Shown: piece after piece, positions 5,217-30,077 of the stretch | Numbering within the stretch: position 1 is the stretch's first letter | Layout of the letters: every line of letters starts with the position of its first letter | Source: Marinomonas sargassi | Lineage (GTDB): Bacteria; Pseudomonadota; Gammaproteobacteria; Pseudomonadales; Marinomonadaceae | Reading direction: 5' to 3' | DNA length: 64,000 bases | Assembly (NCBI RefSeq): GCF_025716875.1 | Contig: NZ_JAOVZB010000001.1 | Location: forward strand, 124,001 to 188,000 | Notes under the pieces: model-generated | Database searches by the model: none | Seen by the model: the letters and a program-made list of their open reading frames with translations, nothing else | What the model was told of the DNA's origin: nothing | Made by a program: the position numbers and the translations under genes

Positions 5217-5308
5217 AAAATATTCTAAGCAACCTTCACCATTAAAGTTAATCGCATTAATCAACCATACTATAATAGAGCATGATATAACATTTCCAGC
5301 AACGTATA

Positions 5309-6577: not shown

Positions 6578-6678
6578 GAATAACCTAATCCTTTCAATGT
6601 ATTTTGCTTACAAATCCATAGCTTACCCGAAAGAAACACATAAATATAGACTCAATAACGGCCTTATTTACATAGCAA

Positions 6679-8802
6679 CTATTGACCAATAACACCAACA
6701 ACAGTAATACGTTTATGATCAGGAACCTCTTGGTATGAGAGAACCGACATATTAACCATTCCATAACGCATAAAGCGCGCCAACATAGGACGAATCGGCG
6801 CAGAAACTACCAAAATTGGTGCATTTCCCATTGCCTCTTGCTGCTCAGCAGATTGCTTAAGCGATGACTGCAATTGCTCTGCCATTTGTGGCTCAAGAAT
6901 TAAAGCCTCTTCATTTTTAACACCAGACTGCTGACTCTGCTGCACTGTCTGCATTAACATTTTTTCAAGCTGCGGCTCTAGCGTAAGAACAGGTATTTCT
7001 TCAACACCATCCGCTAACGTTTGAATAATAAGCCTCGATAAGGAAGTTCGAACCGCTGCCGTTAATATCATCGGATCTTGCGTCTTCGGCTGAACCCCCA
7101 TAATAGACTCGGCAATAGTCCGCATATCACGCAAAGGCACACCTTCGATCAACAAGTTCTGCAACACTTTCAACAACACACTTAAAGGCACAGTATTTGG
7201 CACTAACTCTTCAGCTAACTTAGGGTTATATTGCTTCAAGAGACTCAGCAATTGCTGCACTTCATCATGACCTATGAGCTCATACGCATGCTTATGCATA
7301 ATCTGATTGATATGTGTGGCCACTACCGTACTCACATCAACCACAGTATATCCATAAGTTTGAGCCTGATCTCTACTTTTAGGGTCAATCCACACCGCAT
7401 CAAGACCAAATGAAGGGTCTTTACCTGCAATACCATCAATCGCACCAAACACTTGTCCCGGATCAATAGCCAAGTCCTTATCAGGGTGCACCTCAGCTTC
7501 AGCCAAACTCACCCCCATCAAGGTGACTCTATAGGCATTCGGCATTAAATCTAGATTATCTCGAATGTGCACACTCGGCACCAAAAAGCCCAAATCTTGA
7601 GAAAGCTTCCTACGTACACCTTTAATTCTCGCCAACAATTCTCCACCTTGGCTTTTATCCACCAAAGGTATCAAACGGTAACCGACCTCTAAGCCCAACA
7701 TATCTACAGGAGCAACATCGTCCCAACTAAGGTCCTTAGCTTCCGCAGGCACCTCACTACGCCCTTCAGCCCCCGGTTTACTAACAGAACCTTGCTTTTG
7801 CTTGGGCTTTTGTTTTTTTCGATATTCCAAGAAGAAAGCTAAGCCACCTAAGCAAGCCGCTAGAGAAAGAAAAGAAAAGTGAGGCATACCTGGCACTACA
7901 CCCATAATAGTCATAACGCCAGCAGCAACATACAAGACCTTGGAAGAACCAAACATTTGGCTCATAACCTGAGAGCCCATATCACCACTTTCATTAACTC
8001 GAGTAACCATAATGGCTGCTGCAGTAGACAGCATTAATGATGGCAACTGTGCGACTAGACCATCACCTATTGTTAAAAGCGAGTAACTCTCAACCGCTTC
8101 ATTAAATGAAAGGTCATGCTGAGCTATACCTACCGATAAGCCACCAATAATATTGATCCCTAGAATCAACAAACCCGCAATGGCATCGCCCTTCACGAAT
8201 TTTGAAGCACCATCCATAGACCCGTAAAATTCTGCTTCAGATGCTATTTCCATTCGACGTGTTTTAGCCTGTTCCGCATCTATCATGCCGGCATTCAAGT
8301 CCGCATCGATGGCCATTTGCTTCCCCGGCATTGCATCTAGCGTAAAACGGGCACTTACTTCAGATATACGGCCAGCACCCTTGGTTACTACGGCAAAATT
8401 GATAATCATCAATATGCCAAACACCACAAAACCAACAACGTAATTACCACCGATAACCACTTCACCAAAGGCCTGAATTACCTTACCTGCGGCATCACCA
8501 CCCTCGTGTCCATCTAAAAGCACCACACGCGTTGAAGCCACATTCAACGCCAGACGCATCAATGTAGAGACAAGAAGAACAGTAGGAAAAACGGCAAAAT
8601 CTAGAGGACGTAATGAATAGATAGCGACTAGTAACACAACGATTGCGAGAGCAATATTGAAAGTAAAAAGAACGTCTAACAAAAATGATGGAATCGGCAA
8701 AATCATCATCGCAAGAAGCGATAATAACAGCACAGGAATACCTAGGCTTCCCCTGAATATACCTTGAGCTTGCCCTGCAAGTCGACTACGGTCAAAATTC
8801 AC
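6679..8802 (-). CDS. flhA: FlhA, flagellar export apparatus membrane protein
   Basis: Inner-membrane ring of the flagellar type III export gate, using proton-motive force and docking chaperone-substrate complexes through its cytoplasmic domain. The 707 residues show about eight hydrophobic segments in the first 330, including the conserved FHIPEP-region equivalent (RFTLDAMPGKQMAIDADLN region, about 150-170), then a Lys/Gln linker and a soluble C-terminal domain. The start is a GTG with AGGA about 10 bases upstream, right after flhB. Length is standard (about 700). Confidence 0.97.
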   Translation of the reverse strand: MNFDRSRLAGQAQGIFRGSLGIPVLLLSLLAMMILPIPSFLLDVLFTFNIALAIVVLLVAIYSLRPLDFAVFPTVLLVSTLMRLALNVASTRVVLLDGHEGGDAAGKVIQAFGEVVIGGNYVVGFVVFGILMIINFAVVTKGAGRISEVSARFTLDAMPGKQMAIDADLNAGMIDAEQAKTRRMEIASEAEFYGSMDGASKFVKGDAIAGLLILGINIIGGLSVGIAQHDLSFNEAVESYSLLTIGDGLVAQLPSLMLSTAAAIMVTRVNESGDMGSQVMSQMFGSSKVLYVAAGVMTIMGVVPGMPHFSFLSLAACLGGLAFFLEYRKKQKPKQKQGSVSKPGAEGRSEVPAEAKDLSWDDVAPVDMLGLEVGYRLIPLVDKSQGGELLARIKGVRRKLSQDLGFLVPSVHIRDNLDLMPNAYRVTLMGVSLAEAEVHPDKDLAIDPGQVFGAIDGIAGKDPSFGLDAVWIDPKSRDQAQTYGYTVVDVSTVVATHINQIMHKHAYELIGHDEVQQLLSLLKQYNPKLAEELVPNTVPLSVLLKVLQNLLIEGVPLRDMRTIAESIMGVQPKTQDPMILTAAVRTSLSRLIIQTLADGVEEIPVLTLEPQLEKMLMQTVQQSQQSGVKNEEALILEPQMAEQLQSSLKQSAEQQEAMGNAPILVVSAPIRPMLARFMRYGMVNMSVLSYQEVPDHKRITVVGVIGQ

Positions 8803-12198: not shown

Positions 12199-12714
12199 TT
12201 ATTTCAACCGTTTTAAGCGTTCACTTGGACTCACAACATCAGTCAAGCGAATACCATATCTATCATTTACCACCACAACCTCACCATGAGCAATTAAAGT
12301 ACCATTAACCAGAACATCTAAAGGCTCCCCTGCATAACGATCAAGCTCAACAACAGAGCCCTGAGTAAGCTGCATTAGGGTTCGTATGGCAATCTCAGTA
12401 CTACCAAGTTCCATGGACAAATTGACAGGGATATCCATAATAAGGTCAAGATCAGAACCAATACTACCAACAGGAACGGTTGCCCCTGAAAGCTCATCCA
12501 GCTTTACAGGCGTCACCTCTTCCTGTTCGCTCATAGCAGCGGCCCAATCATCGCCACCACCAGCATCACCAGACTCTTCCATGGCAGCAGCCCACTCATC
12601 TGCTAGACCATCGCCATCGCCTTCGTTGTCACCAGACTCTTCCATCGCAGCAGCCCATTCATCGGCTAAACCTTCGTCCATACCTGCTTGATCAGGAGAT
12701 TCTTCATTCGCCAT
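12199..12714 (-). CDS. fliN: FliN, motor switch protein with repeated N-terminal motif
   Basis: C-ring switch protein; binds FliM and CheY-P and helps dock FliH. The C-terminal SpoA domain is typical (about 88-168: LIMDIPVNLSMELG ... VVVVNDRYGIRLTDV). The N-terminal 65 residues are odd: the segment LADEWAAAMEESGD occurs twice (16-29 and 37-50), with a third shortened copy DDWAAAM (55-61). Other FliN proteins usually carry one such D-x-W-A-x-A motif. The duplication is also visible at the DNA level. The protein is 171 residues. It follows fliM by one base. Confidence 0.95.
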   Translation of the reverse strand: MANEESPDQAGMDEGLADEWAAAMEESGDNEGDGDGLADEWAAAMEESGDAGGGDDWAAAMSEQEEVTPVKLDELSGATVPVGSIGSDLDLIMDIPVNLSMELGSTEIAIRTLMQLTQGSVVELDRYAGEPLDVLVNGTLIAHGEVVVVNDRYGIRLTDVVSPSERLKRLK

Positions 12715-16391: not shown

Positions 16392-16439
16392 AACTTCCTC
16401 CAACGATATTGAAAGCTATGCAATTGGGAGGCCAATTTA

Positions 16440-17446: not shown

Positions 17447-19312
17447 TTATTCCCCTCTCGATCCTTCAAGAAGCTGCAGACTATCGCCCTCAACTTGGGG
17501 AGTTGTTTTATCCATTATTTCTTGTACTTTATCGACCATCTCATTGATCGACTCACGTGCTAAATCCAGTCTTTCCGAACCTATAGTACGATCAGACTGT
17601 AGCGAAGACAAACTAGACTCAGCAACAGCTCTCATTTCTTCAATTTGGGTCTGAACCTTGCTAATGTCATGCTCTAGATCTACAGAGAAACGACGCCTAA
17701 CATTAGCACTTTCACCTTCTGTCGCCGAAAGACTAGACAATACACCAACACGGACCTCATTAAGCCAACGCTCTACATCATTCAGAAGTACAACATCAGA
17801 AGACAAATCCTTCTCTACTAGTTGCAGTCTCTTAAGAACAAGCTCATACCCCAGCAACAAAGAATCCCGAACTTGCTCTGATACATCTGCCACACTATTT
17901 AACTCGGGATGAATATCCTGACAGACAACCAGGGCATCACTTTGAGGAATCAGCTCGTCATCAAGACCTTCAGTTTGGTAGATTTTCTGAGACATTAAAA
18001 AAGGGATTTGTTGTAGTTTAGTAACTTCTTCAATATTGTCGTCGCCAAGTACATTATTCACTTCTTCAAACAGCTCAACCACATTTCTACGTATAGACTC
18101 TAAGGACTGTGAAAAACTTACATAGGGTGAATCCGACCTTAATATTCGAATTGGCGCAGTCCAAATATCTTTTTCAATGAGTTGAAGACTATTATGTAAA
18201 ATCTTCAACTCAGCTTCCTCAGACTTAGACTCCAAAACAATGATACTTCTTAGACTCTCTTCTTCTGAGTCAGGCGCACCACTAAGGCGATTAACTTTTA
18301 CCCCATACACTCCAGATGACAATTTAACTATGGTTTCTTTATCAGATAAAAGAACCGAGTCAACCACACGTTCTCCAACTGGAGTATCTACGCCTGAGTA
18401 GATACCAAGAACAGGCTCAAATGCAGCAGAGTTAGAAATCCATAGTCGCTCGGCGCCGGCACTCATCCATGCAACATCACCAACATCATTGGTAACAAAA
18501 AATGGCTCTTCGATACTAGAGAAAACTATCTCTAAAAGTTTTAAGTTCGCTGCAGTTAATGCAAGATCAAAACCTTGAGTTTCTAGCTCATTGTCCAACA
18601 TGTACCCCAAGTGGGTAAATTCATCAATACAACTACGATGTGCCCCGACTATGGAATGCTTATGTCTATCAACAATATTATGTAAATCAGCAATACCTGA
18701 GCGCATTTGCCTTACATAACTTGCTGCCCAATAGACGATAAAGAAGGCTAACAACGCAAAGGCTCCAATAGGCCACCATATTAACTTTTCAACAAATACT
18801 TGGCGCTCGTACTCATAAATAACACTCATTTCGGAAAGCTCATCACCTAAACGTTCCAACACCTCAATCGCATAATAAATGGAGGTTCGATCATCTTCAG
18901 AGAGAGGCAAGAGAAATTTATGGGATAAGCTATCTAAAAGCACCTTGGCACCAGCTATTTCGTCACCAGACAATGATTCAAACATCATTAAGTCTTGCTC
19001 GATTAACTGATATTCCCCAGTTAGTACTTGATGTAAATGACTCGATGAATGCCCTAAACTGCCTTCATCGTATAGTTGCCTATCTTCAATGAGCAACCAT
19101 TCAAGCCAATGCTCCTCCGCATGGTGTACTACCGACACTAAATCATTAAGCTTTGTCTGTTGGATTTTATGCTTTTCAATTGTCGAGTTCATCACAAAAA
19201 ACAAACCGACAAACGACAACAGCAAAAGAAACAACAAGCCAAATACACCTTTCTGTAATCGACCAACAAGCTCTTTTCTCGGCAACTCAGGGGAAACATT
19301 TTGTGTATTCAT
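17447..19312 (-). CDS. Membrane PAS-domain protein without recognisable output, flagellar locus
   Basis: I do not recognise a named family. The ATG at 19312, one base after the preceding stop, gives 621 residues. Visible layout: membrane helix 22-41, a helical periplasmic segment of about 135 residues, membrane helix 177-199, a PAS-like domain about 255-363 (SSIEEPFFVTNDVGDVAWMS start), then a long helical, probably coiled-coil tail (365-621). The architecture is that of a chemoreceptor or sensor kinase, but there is no kinase H-box, no GGDEF/EAL, and no chemoreceptor hairpin tip. It sits between a 627-residue orphan and the receiver-HATPase gene. Probably a sensor for that module; inference only. 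Confidence 0.7.
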   Translation of the reverse strand: MNTQNVSPELPRKELVGRLQKGVFGLLFLLLLSFVGLFFVMNSTIEKHKIQQTKLNDLVSVVHHAEEHWLEWLLIEDRQLYDEGSLGHSSSHLHQVLTGEYQLIEQDLMMFESLSGDEIAGAKVLLDSLSHKFLLPLSEDDRTSIYYAIEVLERLGDELSEMSVIYEYERQVFVEKLIWWPIGAFALLAFFIVYWAASYVRQMRSGIADLHNIVDRHKHSIVGAHRSCIDEFTHLGYMLDNELETQGFDLALTAANLKLLEIVFSSIEEPFFVTNDVGDVAWMSAGAERLWISNSAAFEPVLGIYSGVDTPVGERVVDSVLLSDKETIVKLSSGVYGVKVNRLSGAPDSEEESLRSIIVLESKSEEAELKILHNSLQLIEKDIWTAPIRILRSDSPYVSFSQSLESIRRNVVELFEEVNNVLGDDNIEEVTKLQQIPFLMSQKIYQTEGLDDELIPQSDALVVCQDIHPELNSVADVSEQVRDSLLLGYELVLKRLQLVEKDLSSDVVLLNDVERWLNEVRVGVLSSLSATEGESANVRRRFSVDLEHDISKVQTQIEEMRAVAESSLSSLQSDRTIGSERLDLARESINEMVDKVQEIMDKTTPQVEGDSLQLLEGSRGE

Positions 19313-19313
19313 G

Positions 19314-21197
19314 CTAGCCTTTCTTTTCAATAGACAATGAAGGTGGCCAGATACCACCCACTAAAGATGTAAAATTATTCTTATTTATAACAACAAACTC
19401 TTCTTGTATGGAGGAAAAAACTTCCTCTATCATTCTACCGTTTTCAGTAGAGGGCACAAAAAAATCTTGCGTATCATAGCCAAACGGTAAAGAAGCATAC
19501 CAATTACAAGCTTGAAAGAACAAAATAACTGACTGGTTTCGCCACTCCAATATCACTGAAAAGCCTTTACTTGGCTTATCTTGTAAAGTTTTTGCTCCTA
19601 ATAACACTTGATCAAAACACTGCCCTTCATAAACAACAAATGGTGGAATAGCCTCATTTCCATCAAAAGAGTCAAAAAAATGAACATCTAAACATGGTGT
19701 TAGAACCCTTATTAAGGACGCTTCAACCCAGACATCTTTGCCGAACAGCTGACCTGCGTAATAACCACTTTTCCCTGCAGATTGCGAAGAACCTTGAAAC
19801 ACCTCCACTGCAGGCAAACAAGATAAATATGAAAGGGACTTATACTCAAATAACCATGGTTCTAAAAAAGCATCATTATTCTTAGATAACCAAACATTTT
19901 TGAACCAAGTTTTAGGCACTGCCATAAAGGCAGGCACAGCCTCGATATCACGCTTAGATAAATAAGGTAAAGCAAAACACTCTCCAACCTGCTCAATTAG
20001 CGCAATATTAAACGAATCGGACACTGAAGCTTGCTCTATATACTCCAGAACATTGCTTCCGAAAACATGGGTAACTAATGGGACTTTTTGCTCATTTGAA
20101 AGCACGATAAAAGCCAAATTAGATTCGTCACTTTTTTCTATATCGACAAATAAGGCTGTGTCTAATCTCAAACACTCCCCACAATCAAATACTACTTTAG
20201 ATTCACCGACATCAAATTCAAATAAGAACGAAGATAAGTAATCCCGACCTAAACATTGGCGATATTGAACTTCACTTCGACCATTTCCTACATCCATAGC
20301 ACCTAGATAAAATGCACCACCATGACGAACTGGAAAACCGCCATCACTTATTTCATCTGGCAATACTGTATCAAAACACGGGACAAGACGAGAGTACCTT
20401 TTATCTGTCACGCGAGCGACATGGTCAGGAAGCGTCAGCTCAAACTCTTGATAAAAGCTCCCTTTCAATTGAGTTTCATATTTTGTTAGAAGCTTGTTTC
20501 GAGTACTAACCTCTAGCCCATCATGCTGAAACAAAGGCAGATAACTTGACTCACACAGTTCTCGCAAATCAATGCTTTTCTCAACAAAAACCAATTGCCA
20601 ATCTAACACTCGATAATGTGCTTTCAACCATGCCAGAGTCTGCACAGTTTCCAATACAAGACGCCCTATTATCGTATTATCATTCGCAGAGGTAACTTGA
20701 AAAGACACAGAACCAAGACGACTAAGCCGCTCAAGCAAAGCTTCAAATTCAAAACCTATCTTCTTGAGGTCAAAGTGCGCCTCGTAGCTTTTTAAATCTG
20801 GCAATTGAGCAGAATAATCGACAATACTCTTTAAGCTATGCCAACAACTTCGATCATTAGACAGAAGAAAAACCAGTTGATCGATACGCTCTTCACTTAT
20901 TTGAGCGGCATAAATAATCTGAAAGACTGCGTCAAACGCAGATAAAAAAGAATGGTGAAAGTCAGCGGAATAAGGAGAGCTTGAAAGAATCAGTCGGTCT
21001 ATTGCCCCCTCTATAGAGCTCATTTTCTGAGACAATAGACTATCTTCTAAGTTAGGGGGCTGATGTTTATTTAAATAAAGCAAAGCAGTCCGTAGCTTTT
21101 TCAAGCCAGACTGGGGTGCTAGTTCATACTCACACAATGCTTTTTCTACTTCTTCAGAAAGTAAAGGCATATCAAGCAAATTACCTTGCTTACTCAT
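19314..21197 (-). CDS. Hypothetical protein of 627 residues, flagellar locus
   Basis: No family recognised. The protein looks soluble: no signal peptide or membrane helix. Residues 1-240 are mostly helical (LKKLRTALLYLNKHQPPN, FEALLERLSRLGSV), and the rest appears rich in beta strands and aromatic residues, with a Cys pair in VVFDCGECLRLD near 340. The C-terminal segment with a strand pattern (FSVILEWRNQSVILFFQACNWY, about 555-575) could be CheW-like, but I cannot show it. It is the first of three co-oriented genes between fliJ and fliK, with one base to the next gene, so likely translated together. The ATG at 21197 is the only good start. Confidence 0.65.
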   Translation of the reverse strand: MSKQGNLLDMPLLSEEVEKALCEYELAPQSGLKKLRTALLYLNKHQPPNLEDSLLSQKMSSIEGAIDRLILSSSPYSADFHHSFLSAFDAVFQIIYAAQISEERIDQLVFLLSNDRSCWHSLKSIVDYSAQLPDLKSYEAHFDLKKIGFEFEALLERLSRLGSVSFQVTSANDNTIIGRLVLETVQTLAWLKAHYRVLDWQLVFVEKSIDLRELCESSYLPLFQHDGLEVSTRNKLLTKYETQLKGSFYQEFELTLPDHVARVTDKRYSRLVPCFDTVLPDEISDGGFPVRHGGAFYLGAMDVGNGRSEVQYRQCLGRDYLSSFLFEFDVGESKVVFDCGECLRLDTALFVDIEKSDESNLAFIVLSNEQKVPLVTHVFGSNVLEYIEQASVSDSFNIALIEQVGECFALPYLSKRDIEAVPAFMAVPKTWFKNVWLSKNNDAFLEPWLFEYKSLSYLSCLPAVEVFQGSSQSAGKSGYYAGQLFGKDVWVEASLIRVLTPCLDVHFFDSFDGNEAIPPFVVYEGQCFDQVLLGAKTLQDKPSKGFSVILEWRNQSVILFFQACNWYASLPFGYDTQDFFVPSTENGRMIEEVFSSIQEEFVVINKNNFTSLVGGIWPPSLSIEKKG

Positions 21198-26955: not shown

Positions 26956-27022
26956 GCTACTCACCTTTAAAAAACACTTATATCTAGCTTATCATAAAGC
27001 GAATGAAAACAAGATACAAAAA

Positions 27023-28369
27023 TCAATCAACATCTATACCACTTTCTCGCATTTTAGCAATTTTATAACGTAATGTTCGAGGACTAATACCTAATTTATC
27101 AGCGACCACTTTACGCTTACCATTCGCATCGATCAAAGCTTGAGCAATAATTCTAAATTCGTGCTGCTGAACACCCTTGCCAAGGATAGAGGCTGCGCTA
27201 TCTTCATCCACTTCAGGTTCAGCGTCTGCTGGCGACAGACTCATCATATCAAATGCAATATGATCATCATGAATCTGACCATTGGCACTTAATATCAAAG
27301 CCCGCTGAATGACATTATCCAACTCTCGAACGTTACCGGGCCAAGGGTGAGATTCTAATTTACTTTGTGCTGATGGTTTAAAAGTCGCCGATGTCATACG
27401 CATTTTAGCCGCATGTTTAGCAAGAAGGTGCTGAGCAATAGGAAGTATATCTCCCTTGCGCTCGCGGATCGGCAGCCAGCGCAGAGGAAAAACATTCAAA
27501 CGGTAATACAAGTCTTCCCTAAAACCACCTTCACGAACATACTCAGCCAAATCCCGGTTCGTTGTCGCAATAATACGTACATCAAGAGGAATGGATTTTT
27601 TACCACCTAAACGCTCAACTTCCTGCTCCTGTAGCACTCGCAGCAGCTTGGCCTGCAAGCCAACATCCATTTCAGTAATTTCATCAAGAAGCAAGGTTCC
27701 ACCATTAGCTTGCTCAAATTTACCAGCTTGGGAAGACACCGCTCCAGTGTACGCACCTTTTTCATAACCAAAGAGAATGGCTTCCAACATATTTTCTGGA
27801 ATGGCAGCACAGTTAATAGCAACAAATGGTGCATTGGGGCGACTTGAATTCTGATGGATATAGTGAGCCAACACTTCCTTACCCGTACCACTTTCACCAC
27901 AAATCAATACGGTAGAATCTGTTACAGCCACTCTTTTAGCCAATTCTAATAGGGACACACTGGCAGGGTCTTTAGCGATCGGTTGACCATTCGTTGATGG
28001 CGCAACTTTCACCGTATATTTAGCAATGGCATCCAGTAATTCTTCTTCTTTGAAGGGCTTCAATAAATAATCAACAGCGCCGTCTCGCATAGCTTCCACC
28101 GCGTGCGCTATATCACCGTAAGCCGTCATCAACATAATGGGAAGTTCAGGGTAATATTCGACCACATGCTGAAGTAAACCATAACCATCCATACCAGGAA
28201 GGTTGACGTCAGAAACAACCATATCAAAAGGGTTATGCTTTAAGGCAACCACAGCTTCTTCTGCACTGTAAGCCATTTTACATTGATATCCAGCCAACAT
28301 TAGCGTGTCTTCTAACGCCTCGGCCAAACCTTTATCATCTTCAACAATCAATAATTTTACATCGGACAT
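27023..28369 (-). CDS. fleR: FleR/FlrC, sigma54-dependent flagellar response regulator
   Basis: NtrC-type activator for mid-class flagellar genes with sigma54. The 448 residues have a receiver with phospho-Asp D54 (VVSDVNLPGMDG) and Lys in LLKPF, an AAA+ domain with Walker A CGESGTGKE, the sigma54-contact loop GAYTGA (a variant of GAFTGA) and R-finger region, and a Fis-type C-terminal helix-turn-helix (VVADKLGISPRTLRYKIAKM). It follows fleS by one base. So sigma54-dependent activation capacity is retained here, unlike in the gene two upstream. Confidence 0.96.
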   Translation of the reverse strand: MSDVKLLIVEDDKGLAEALEDTLMLAGYQCKMAYSAEEAVVALKHNPFDMVVSDVNLPGMDGYGLLQHVVEYYPELPIMLMTAYGDIAHAVEAMRDGAVDYLLKPFKEEELLDAIAKYTVKVAPSTNGQPIAKDPASVSLLELAKRVAVTDSTVLICGESGTGKEVLAHYIHQNSSRPNAPFVAINCAAIPENMLEAILFGYEKGAYTGAVSSQAGKFEQANGGTLLLDEITEMDVGLQAKLLRVLQEQEVERLGGKKSIPLDVRIIATTNRDLAEYVREGGFREDLYYRLNVFPLRWLPIRERKGDILPIAQHLLAKHAAKMRMTSATFKPSAQSKLESHPWPGNVRELDNVIQRALILSANGQIHDDHIAFDMMSLSPADAEPEVDEDSAASILGKGVQQHEFRIIAQALIDANGKRKVVADKLGISPRTLRYKIAKMRESGIDVD

Positions 28370-28370
28370 G

Positions 28371-29525
28371 TCATACCCTTATGAGAGGAATTGAAAAACT
28401 CGCTGTTGTCCCAGCGCCCTCTATGCTATCTATTTCAAAATGCCCATGATGAGCTCTGGCAATCGCCTTAACCACCATCAAACCCAATCCTGTTCCGTGC
28501 TGTTTTGTTGTCACAAAACCATCCTGAACATGCTCTAAGTGCTCTTTAGACATGCCCACACCCCGATCCTTAAAGATCAGTTTTAAATTACCTGCCTCAA
28601 TATGGCAATACAAGCGAACTAGCTCGCCATCATCTTGTGCATCTATTGCATTATTTAACAAGTTTAACAAGGCACCTAGCAGCGTTTCATTATTACAACG
28701 TATATAGTCTTCCGATGCAAAAGTCCCTAAATCACTCTCAAACTGCATGCTCTTTTGCTCAACTATATCTTGGCAATGCTCAACTAATTCATTAACAAAA
28801 TCTGCTACACAGACGGTATCATCCAATTTAATTTCACTACGTGAAAAAATCAGCATGTCTCGAATCTGCTTTTCAATATTAGATAAGCGGTCTACCAACT
28901 TATTCGCAAAGGTTTGCCTCATCACTGGAGCCAGCTCCGCCTTTTGAAGATGACCTGCATAAAGCGTGGCAGATGACAAAGGGGTTCTTATTTGATGCGC
29001 CAATGCGGCAACCATTTTACCCATATTTGATAAGCGTTCATGATGGTTTAGCTTTTTCTGCAAATGGTAGGCTTCCGTCAAATCTACTAAGATCACCAAC
29101 TGCCCTGGCGCATTGCCTAAAGAAGCCGTTTCAACTCGAACGCGACGTCCTGTCACCATAGTTACATCGTGACCATCATCCTCTTGCGGACGAAAGCTCA
29201 ACGGCACTATGGTTCCCCACGACTGACCAACAAGGGACAAATTAAACAGCTTCTCAGCCACAGGGTTTGCCATTACCACAACGCCAGTATCATTTAACAA
29301 TAAAACACCGACCGGCATAGACTCGAAAAGCTGCTGAAATTGCGATACTAAAACGCGATTTTTATCCTGCTCTTCTTGTTTGGCGTGCTCCGAAGCCGCT
29401 AACTGCTCTGAAAGGCGAGTTACTTCCTGCTGAAGCTCTAAGTAAGATTGAGTCAATACTTCAGACGATTCAGTAAATGCTTTAAAGGCGGCCTTCAGCT
29501 CCGCTATTTCCTCATCTTTAGTCAC
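28371..29525 (-). CDS. fleS: FleS/FlrB, flagellar sensor histidine kinase
   Basis: Cytoplasmic kinase partner of FleR. The 384 residues have an N-terminal coiled coil (1-60), a PAS domain (about 65-155, PVGVLLLNDTGVVVMANP), a HisKA domain with phospho-His in ALAHQIRTPLSSATLYAG, and an HATPase domain (N-box LLNNAIDA; GVGM; GTGLGLMVVKAIA). No membrane helix, as in P. aeruginosa FleS. It starts at a GTG that overlaps the preceding TAG by one base, so it is translationally coupled to the small FleQ-like gene. Confidence 0.95.
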   Translation of the reverse strand: MTKDEEIAELKAAFKAFTESSEVLTQSYLELQQEVTRLSEQLAASEHAKQEEQDKNRVLVSQFQQLFESMPVGVLLLNDTGVVVMANPVAEKLFNLSLVGQSWGTIVPLSFRPQEDDGHDVTMVTGRRVRVETASLGNAPGQLVILVDLTEAYHLQKKLNHHERLSNMGKMVAALAHQIRTPLSSATLYAGHLQKAELAPVMRQTFANKLVDRLSNIEKQIRDMLIFSRSEIKLDDTVCVADFVNELVEHCQDIVEQKSMQFESDLGTFASEDYIRCNNETLLGALLNLLNNAIDAQDDGELVRLYCHIEAGNLKLIFKDRGVGMSKEHLEHVQDGFVTTKQHGTGLGLMVVKAIARAHHGHFEIDSIEGAGTTASFSIPLIRV

Positions 29526-29995
29526 TAAAACTCCGACTTACTTATATTGTAGCGACGCATTTTCTCAATTAAGGTGGTGCGCTGTATCTGTAGGTTTTGA
29601 GCGGCTTTAGACACCACTCCTTGAGTAGACACTAATGCCTGACGGATCAACAGTGCCTCTAAGTGACGAACATGTAAATTCAAGTTAACGCCCGCTATTT
29701 GAGGGAAGGTTTGGCGTTGTTTTATCTCTTTGAGGATGACGGATAAATGTTGAGAACGCCAAGGTAGAGGAGCAAGCCACGTATTGTAGTTCCCCACCAC
29801 ATCTAAAGAGTCATTTAGGGAGATGACAGCGACAGCCTCATCTAATTCAAAAGTTGTTACCTCTTTGCCCAATACAACAAAGTCCGGCAATGGAAAGGCA
29901 TGTAAAAAGGCACTGTGCTCCACGCCAATATAAGTAAGAATACTGGAAACACTTGATTTCTCTTCGTCATTTAAGCCGCACAACCAAGCCTTCAC
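29525..29995 (-). CDS. Short FleQ-like regulator lacking the AAA+ domain
   Basis: 156 residues from a GTG at 29995 with AAAGGAG five to six bases upstream. Residues 101-152 match the FleQ C-terminus closely as I recall it, including LEALLIRQAL and RTTLIEKMRRYNIS, i.e. a Fis-type helix-turn-helix. Residues 1-100 look like a FleQ N-terminal receiver-like domain (ILTYIGVEH; LAPLPWRSQHLSVILKEI). The central AAA+ sigma54-interacting domain of about 230 residues is missing: no Walker A, no GAFTGA. The position directly upstream of fleS is that of fleQ/flrA. It is an intact frame overlapping fleS, so probably a functional protein. It could bind DNA but not remodel sigma54 polymerase. A full fleQ elsewhere is not excluded. 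Confidence 0.85.
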   Translation of the reverse strand: MKAWLCGLNDEEKSSVSSILTYIGVEHSAFLHAFPLPDFVVLGKEVTTFELDEAVAVISLNDSLDVVGNYNTWLAPLPWRSQHLSVILKEIKQRQTFPQIAGVNLNLHVRHLEALLIRQALVSTQGVVSKAAQNLQIQRTTLIEKMRRYNISKSEF

Positions 29996-30077
29996 ATCAT
30001 CTCCTTTCTATTAAAAACACCTTAACTTACTGTATATATTGTGTTTTTACTCACTTTTTTCAAGGACTAATTTCACT

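Follow-up and report, generated by a model that had tools for sequence, protein, structure and literature searches.

Through its AAA+ domain and FleN, the master regulator FleQ connects flagella with c-di-GMP and with flagellar number. Excerpts from the review table in PMC8036289 place the Pseudomonas genes fliE, fliL, flhA, flhF and fleS in class II, under FleQ, and flgB and fliK in class III, under FleR. As described in parts of PMC10723142, the receiver domains of FleQ dimerise via helix alpha1, the likely targets of its helix-turn-helix (HTH), bound as a dimer, are 14-bp pseudopalindromes, and the AAA+ domain is where FleN and c-di-GMP exert their effects. A second arrangement is that of Campylobacter and Helicobacter (FlgSR with sigma54), where, by the account in excerpts from PMC7064773 and PMC3930126, rod and hook genes are under a two-component sigma54 activator and early genes apparently lie outside sigma54 control, those of C. 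jejuni and H. pylori being without a known master regulator.

Here we describe a Pseudomonas-type flagellar cluster in which the gene at the fleQ position encodes a FleQ-derived protein of 156 residues, mini-FleQ, that has no AAA+ domain. It lies in a stretch of 64,000 nucleotides (the window), and the genome is Marinomonas-like, judging from the named records of related loci.

Results

A short gene at the fleQ position

As in the FleQ/FlrA systems, for which this location is a criterion, mini-fleQ sits directly before fleSR. The features of the operon are as follows.

29525..29995, minus strand: mini-fleQ gene, 156 aa, GTG start (open reading frame, genus-wide matches, purifying selection)
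28371..29525, minus strand: fleS, sensor kinase (Pfam; one base shared between its start and the mini-fleQ stop)
27023..28369, minus strand: fleR, complete sigma54 activator with receiver, AAA+ and HTH (Pfam)
30035..30063, minus strand: candidate sigma70-type promoter of the mini-fleQ-fleS-fleR operon (by eye, consensus match only)

The GTG start is preceded by the ribosome site AAAGGAG, and the mini-fleQ stop shares a single base, at 29525, with the start of fleS; this overlap recurs in 29 of 30 named relatives, and in the remaining one the two genes abut. Both fleS and fleR are complete according to Pfam, and fleSR is now fused behind mini-fleQ in one operon. The candidate promoter combines TTGAAA (30063-30058) with AATATA (30040-30035) at a spacer of 17, and TTGAAA with a TATAAT-like sequence stands upstream of mini-fleQ in many relatives at least, among the sequences listed. 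The upstream neighbour looks like bioD by its sequence. The locus agrees with the preliminary description, which had reported an intact frame (down to its exact coordinates), a good ribosome site and an overlap with fleS. No AAA+ frame was found between mini-fleQ and its neighbours, and a frameshift or assembly error hiding such a domain is ruled out by the open short frame in 47 of 48 genus genomes together with the kept fleS overlap.

After fleR the cluster continues with fliE-fliJ, two large proteins, fliK, the fliL-R genes, flhB, flhA, flhF, fliA and cheYZAB, of which fliA, flhB, fliP, fliM, fliK, cheB, cheA and cheZ were checked with Pfam and the others named from sequence and gene order. 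The two large proteins, of 636 and 627 aa, adjoin each other between fliJ and fliK (window 17447-21197) and have no Pfam match at E 1e-5; their relatives in Marinomonas clusters show about 22-50% identity, the second being undetected in 4 of 11.

Descent of the 156-residue protein

Two parts can be distinguished in mini-FleQ.

29531..29701, minus strand: FleQ-type Fis-family helix-turn-helix, residues 99-155 (Pfam, PDB, profiles, tree, alignment)
29705..29995, minus strand: shrunken receiver-like N-terminal domain, residues 1-97 (weak by sequence; receiver-like predicted fold)

Only HTH_8 passes its Pfam cut-off (E 4.5e-10, residues 110-149), and Pfam finds no AAA+ domain (PF00158, with the Walker A and GAFTGA motifs that serve as a criterion of FleQ/FlrA) in the 156 residues, which bears out the preliminary description of a short gene without this domain at the FleQ position. 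Because the AAA+ domain was tested for and not found, mini-FleQ is not classed as FleQ, yet it is FleQ-derived. Its HTH resembles that of P. aeruginosa FleQ (WP_003086448, L077), reading QRTTLIEKMRRYN in mini-FleQ and RRTTLVEKMRKYG in FleQ. A sequence search of the PDB returned two entries for FleQ of P. aeruginosa, at E 7.5e-9 for residues 101-154 and at E 7.2e-7 for residues 101-148, with the third match at E 0.27, and profile comparison gave an HH probability of 99.6 (E 6.9e-25) against the FleQ HTH versus 90.8 against the FleR HTH. In a tree of few columns (59), in which several activators are long-branched and mini-FleQ forms no resolved clade of its own, the mini-FleQ and FleQ HTHs fall together, apart from the other included activators (support 89/82). 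Activators L004 and L007, which the motif did not pick up, are omitted from this tree and their C-termini were read separately. Search, profile and tree thus concur with the earlier assignment of the C-terminal 50 or so residues to a FleQ-like HTH.

The N-terminus, likened earlier to the FleQ receiver, is receiver-like in its predicted fold and weakly so by sequence. Pfam gives no match to the FleQ receiver (PF06490); when residues 1-97 were compared with FleQ residues 1-125, the FleQ receiver was the best of 16 profiles and in the right register, at an E of 0.0066 and an HH probability of 5.7%. The AlphaFold model (mean pLDDT 76.6, pTM 0.44) runs from a strand through a helix (9-22), three further strands and a second helix (81-92) to a Fis-type HTH. 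Modelled residues 1-81 resemble receivers, including the FleQ domain of Vibrio FlrA (8h5v, Z 6.9, rmsd 3.1, 81 residues), a match that ties with ordinary receivers and lies in the Z range where a common arrangement suffices. The C-terminus best matches DNA-bound Fis (3iv5, Z 9.1, rmsd 1.8, 52 residues), and Foldseek alone gives no match to the model below E 0.001.

Replacement of fleQ by an unrelated small Fis-family protein has to be weighed here. The missing Pfam FleQ match and the E of 0.0066 of the N-terminus would suit it. Mini-FleQ shares with Fis the HTH_8 fold and a likely nature as a DNA-bending dimer. Unlike Fis, however, it has a FleQ-specific HTH (in searches, profile comparison and tree), a receiver-like N-terminus and a place in a flagellar operon, before fleS, which is the fleQ position; it also scores 19 bits against the cut-off of 99 of the Fis family model (NF001659). 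We consider such a replacement highly improbable. The best reading is that mini-FleQ is a fleQ descendant that has lost about 300 residues, comprising the linkers and the whole AAA+ domain.

Conservation in Marinomonas and distribution outside the genus

Among 31 named loci, 29 are from Marinomonas and one, with the same short gene, from Maribrevibacterium harenarium, while L076 is an HTH-only match inside a 567-aa activator. Full-length matches occur in 47 of the 48 genus genomes (own included) as open frames of 156-199 aa without internal stops, the 48th genome being 77% complete; identity to the window gene is 45-80%, own genome excepted, and the family-level search returned the same 48 genomes. 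Residues 104-155 are mostly invariant or nearly so across 25 aligned relatives. For the 14 pairs with the least synonymous divergence, dN/dS is 0-0.095 over the whole gene, 0-0.139 in the N-terminal part and 0-0.018 in the C-terminal part. Mini-fleQ is under strong purifying selection, a maintained gene and not debris, as had been proposed, and its close relatives carry the same short form at the locus in place of a full FleQ.

The mini-FleQ profile matches 231 of 341 order genomes, the 15 Marinomonas over the full length, and 194 of 369 in a class-wide sample, where the window's genome alone is full-length in a short frame among the matches listed. No full-length match was found in the other 326 order or the other 368 class genomes among the matches listed, which cover the stronger ones, so that a very diverged short form would have escaped. 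The best order match outside Marinomonas covers residues 65-155 in a 488-aa frame, and the other listed order matches involve mainly the HTH and lie for the most part in full-FleQ frames of about 475-580 aa.

Several candidates for a short FleQ were opened and rejected: in G287 a full FleQ is interrupted by an in-frame stop, in G708, G720 and G636 a full FleQ is split over two frames, and G593 has a receiver-less FleQ of 379 aa; the frames opened leave out G586 (173 aa, at a contig start) and frames of 245-379 aa such as G104, G079 and G322. In one order member a full fleQ is broken by a single in-frame stop (L175:4413-5879). Receiver-less FleQ, with AAA+ and HTH only (about 349-427 aa), occurs in several other families (G086, G122, G140, G161, G191, G233; also L244:852-1991), and the six genomes named first each have a FleN match. 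These proteins are like mini-FleQ in having lost a domain within the FleQ lineage and are its mirror image in what they keep, AAA+ without receiver as opposed to the reverse. Among the matches listed from licensed PMC papers, none deals with a FleQ lacking AAA+ or with FleQ/FleN loss in Marinomonas.

Absence of a full FleQ and of FleN

P. aeruginosa FleQ (WP_003086448) matches 112 of 194 order genomes at 331-1008 bits (E<=1e-95) and none of the eight Marinomonas in that sample. Its best match in the 48 genus genomes reaches 278 bits, and the genus matches listed are other activators by size and coverage. None of the eight clear sigma54 activators of the window genome, listed as 99.99% complete, has a FleQ-type HTH at its C-terminus. 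The preliminary description had offered an antagonist of a full FleQ encoded elsewhere as one role for the short protein. Such a role would suit a DNA-binding fragment devoid of ATPase; no result supports it, and with a full FleQ found neither in this nearly complete genome nor in the genus, we do not regard mini-FleQ as an antagonist and give this reading next to no weight. What stands of the earlier interpretation is a maintained, DNA-binding FleQ derivative without AAA+.

FleN is likewise undetected in the eight Marinomonas of the order sample, against 123 of 194 order genomes (E<=1e-25), and the best match in the 48 genus genomes has 66 bits and 28% identity. Across the 194 order genomes both proteins occur in 108, FleN only in 15, FleQ only in 4 and neither in 67. 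In P. aeruginosa, fleN lies between flhF and fliA, a position that is vacant here; the preliminary description had overlooked this absence.

5265..5308, minus strand: flhF-fliA junction of 44 bases, the P. aeruginosa fleN position, fleN absent (gene order)

The gap between the flhF and fliA protein matches is 51-104 bases in all eight Marinomonas clusters covering it. Three weak FleN matches are left in the window genome, two of them sized like ParA and Mrp proteins; from size and score the weak matches are probably ParA-, MinD- and Mrp-like, and other species might, formally, still have a strongly diverged FleN at another locus. About 1.6 kb beyond the window start, on the cheB side, lies a ParA-like gene (PF13614; G000:C4:121864-122382) that is not FleN by score. 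Elsewhere in the order sample, fleN adjoins fleQ and is not behind flhF in family f8 (G130, G182, G205, G226), and members of family f24 (G070, G109, G167, G191, G213, G233) have two FleQ-like and two FleN-like matches each.

Sigma54 sites in the flagellar cluster

Sites were scored with a simple -24/-12 sigma54 score, for which the background 99th percentile of 200-base window stretches is 17.0. As a bare-consensus scan of the window was not above chance (36 found, 35.1 expected), positions were compared across relatives. Scores of 18-20 are seen for P. aeruginosa fleS, flhA, fliL and fliK, for the fleS of two outgroups and for the fliE of one; the P. aeruginosa flhF, fleN, fliA, flhB and cheY scores are not in this range. 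After a full fleQ, at the fleS promoter, 33 of the 39 outgroup loci that were scored reach at least 18 (31 of 37 genomes, as two are counted twice; one further locus was not scorable).

The corresponding mini-fleQ/fleS junction reaches 17.5 in none of 30 Marinomonas, and one of 30 relatives does so upstream of mini-fleQ, about chance level. Before mini-fleQ, fliE, fliF, fliJ, fliL, flhA, flhF, fliA, cheY and two unknown genes the maximum is 16.5 in the window and up to 11 further genomes (1 to 12 per gene, by alignable start). No site loss is claimed at the flhF junction, because that of P. aeruginosa scores only 15. The two options left from the preliminary description, a repressor or a simple sigma70-type regulator, would be consistent with FleQ-type promoters having no sigma54 sites, a feature that this description had no means of seeing.

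Sites persist at genes of the FleR class. The flgB genes of all 14 genomes scored are preceded by a site of 19-20, at 51-90 bases from the start, and the fliK site scores 17.5 in 11 of 11; the fliK set lies within the cluster set, with which the flgB set has two genomes in common.

16419..16434, minus strand: fliK sigma54 -24/-12 site (kept 11/11; fliK is a FleR-class gene in Pseudomonas)

From the sigma54 activators and the flgB sites we infer that rpoN is present. Persisting sites at flgB and fliK, the operon common to mini-fleQ and fleSR, and DNA-bound Fis (3iv5) as the best structural match would all fit an architectural helper, with Fis-like DNA bending by mini-FleQ at flgB and fliK helping FleR to reach sigma54. 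FleR, however, retains its own HTH, and such a helper role seems to us quite improbable.

A whole-cluster scan also returned intragenic sigma54-like sequences scoring 18.5-19, which are not consistently present, and a few singletons. One lies in the terminal part of flhA, some 300 bases ahead of flhF (window 6869-6884, minus strand; also in G001 and G026), and P. aeruginosa flhA has an 18.5 match as well; another is inside fliN (window 12289-12304, minus strand; also in G001, G028, G026 and G023). Chance resemblance in coding sequence could explain them; it is also conceivable that some are internal sigma54 promoters, most of all one for flhF.

Candidate targets of mini-FleQ

Conserved promoter-like blocks stand upstream of two early genes.

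26986..26999, minus strand: promoter-like conserved block before fliE, CTTTATGATAAGCT, at a junction without a sigma54 site
6620..6633, minus strand: conserved promoter-like block upstream of flhF, CTTTCGGGTAAGCT

Both blocks end in TAAGCT and are without a good -35, and the regions upstream of mini-fleQ, fliE and flhF were judged by eye to be of the sigma70 type. The two exact occurrences of CTTTNNKNTAAGCT in the window are those before fliE and flhF; with one mismatch this motif, chosen after seeing the data, occurs 10 times against 4.75, a modest excess reached by 3 of 100 shuffles. The FleQ box GTCAATNNATTGAC, a criterion for FleQ/FlrA, is not enriched in the window (34 found, 34.4 expected) or in the genome (11 against 8 for the control, all 11 near-matches lying inside mechanical open reading frames), and these counts give no support to canonical FleQ boxes as mini-FleQ targets. 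Between fliI and fliJ some Marinomonas species have, by eye, an inverted repeat around GTAGACG/CGTCTAC.

The want of canonical FleQ boxes at flagellar promoters would also be expected if mini-FleQ were an autoregulator or repressor only, tuning its own fleSR operon or a few others while the early promoters are constitutive. Mini-fleQ is indeed the first gene of the fleSR operon, and excerpts from PMC7064773 and PMC3930126 offer a precedent in the early genes of C. jejuni and H. pylori. Against this, a dN/dS of 0-0.018 in the HTH of the 14 closest pairs seems, in our judgement, beyond the need of a minor autoregulator, and fliE and flhF blocks without a good -35 may point to activator-dependent promoters, where this is often so. 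A role as autoregulator or repressor only appears unlikely.

Discussion

With the alpha1 region and the HTH retained, such a protein could form dimers and contact DNA, and it could not open sigma54 promoters; we therefore propose mini-FleQ as a sigma70-type regulator of early flagellar promoters. We hold it to be fairly probable that this FleQ descendant regulates non-sigma54 promoters by binding DNA without need of ATP, and that FleR is the sigma54 activator of the flagellar genes. Without AAA+, mini-FleQ is unable to hydrolyse ATP or to open a sigma54 promoter, and the region of FleQ to which FleN and c-di-GMP bind is gone. It would act as a Fis-like DNA-binding dimer on early ordinary promoters, most likely those of fliE-J and flhF and perhaps of its own operon, whether by activation or by repression. 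FleS and FleR would come from the mini-fleQ operon, whose promoter is apparently of the sigma70 type, and together with sigma54 FleR would then switch on the rod, hook and hook-length genes (flgB, fliK). For the Marinomonas lineage as a whole, we tentatively suggest, as a quite possible course of events, that a sigma54 enhancer-binding master regulator was turned into an ATP-independent regulator of ordinary promoters, that the FleQ set switched promoter class, with loss of the ATPase, FleN and the sigma54 sites, and that the FleR set stayed with sigma54. The intragenic sigma54-like sequences before flhF make this course slightly less probable.

Such a system would share features with both described arrangements. 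The likeness to FleQ/FlrA extends to the receiver-like N-terminal fold of the model; unlike in those systems, the AAA+ domain is lacking, the receiver-like part is shorter, and the window genome has no detected FleN and no sigma54 sites before fleS, fliE, fliL and flhA. As in Campylobacter and Helicobacter, to the extent covered by the excerpts cited above, the early genes are apparently outside sigma54 control and the rod and hook genes under a two-component sigma54 activator, whereas here the cluster is of the Pseudomonas type and what was once the master regulator survives as a DNA-binding piece.

The pairing of a missing AAA+ module with a strongly selected DNA-binding part makes this lineage a natural experiment, in which the ATPase role of FleQ is separated from its DNA-binding role. 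It prompts one to ask what sets flagellar number when FlhF is present and FleN is not, and the mini-FleQ lineage may show how a sigma54 cascade can be rewired.
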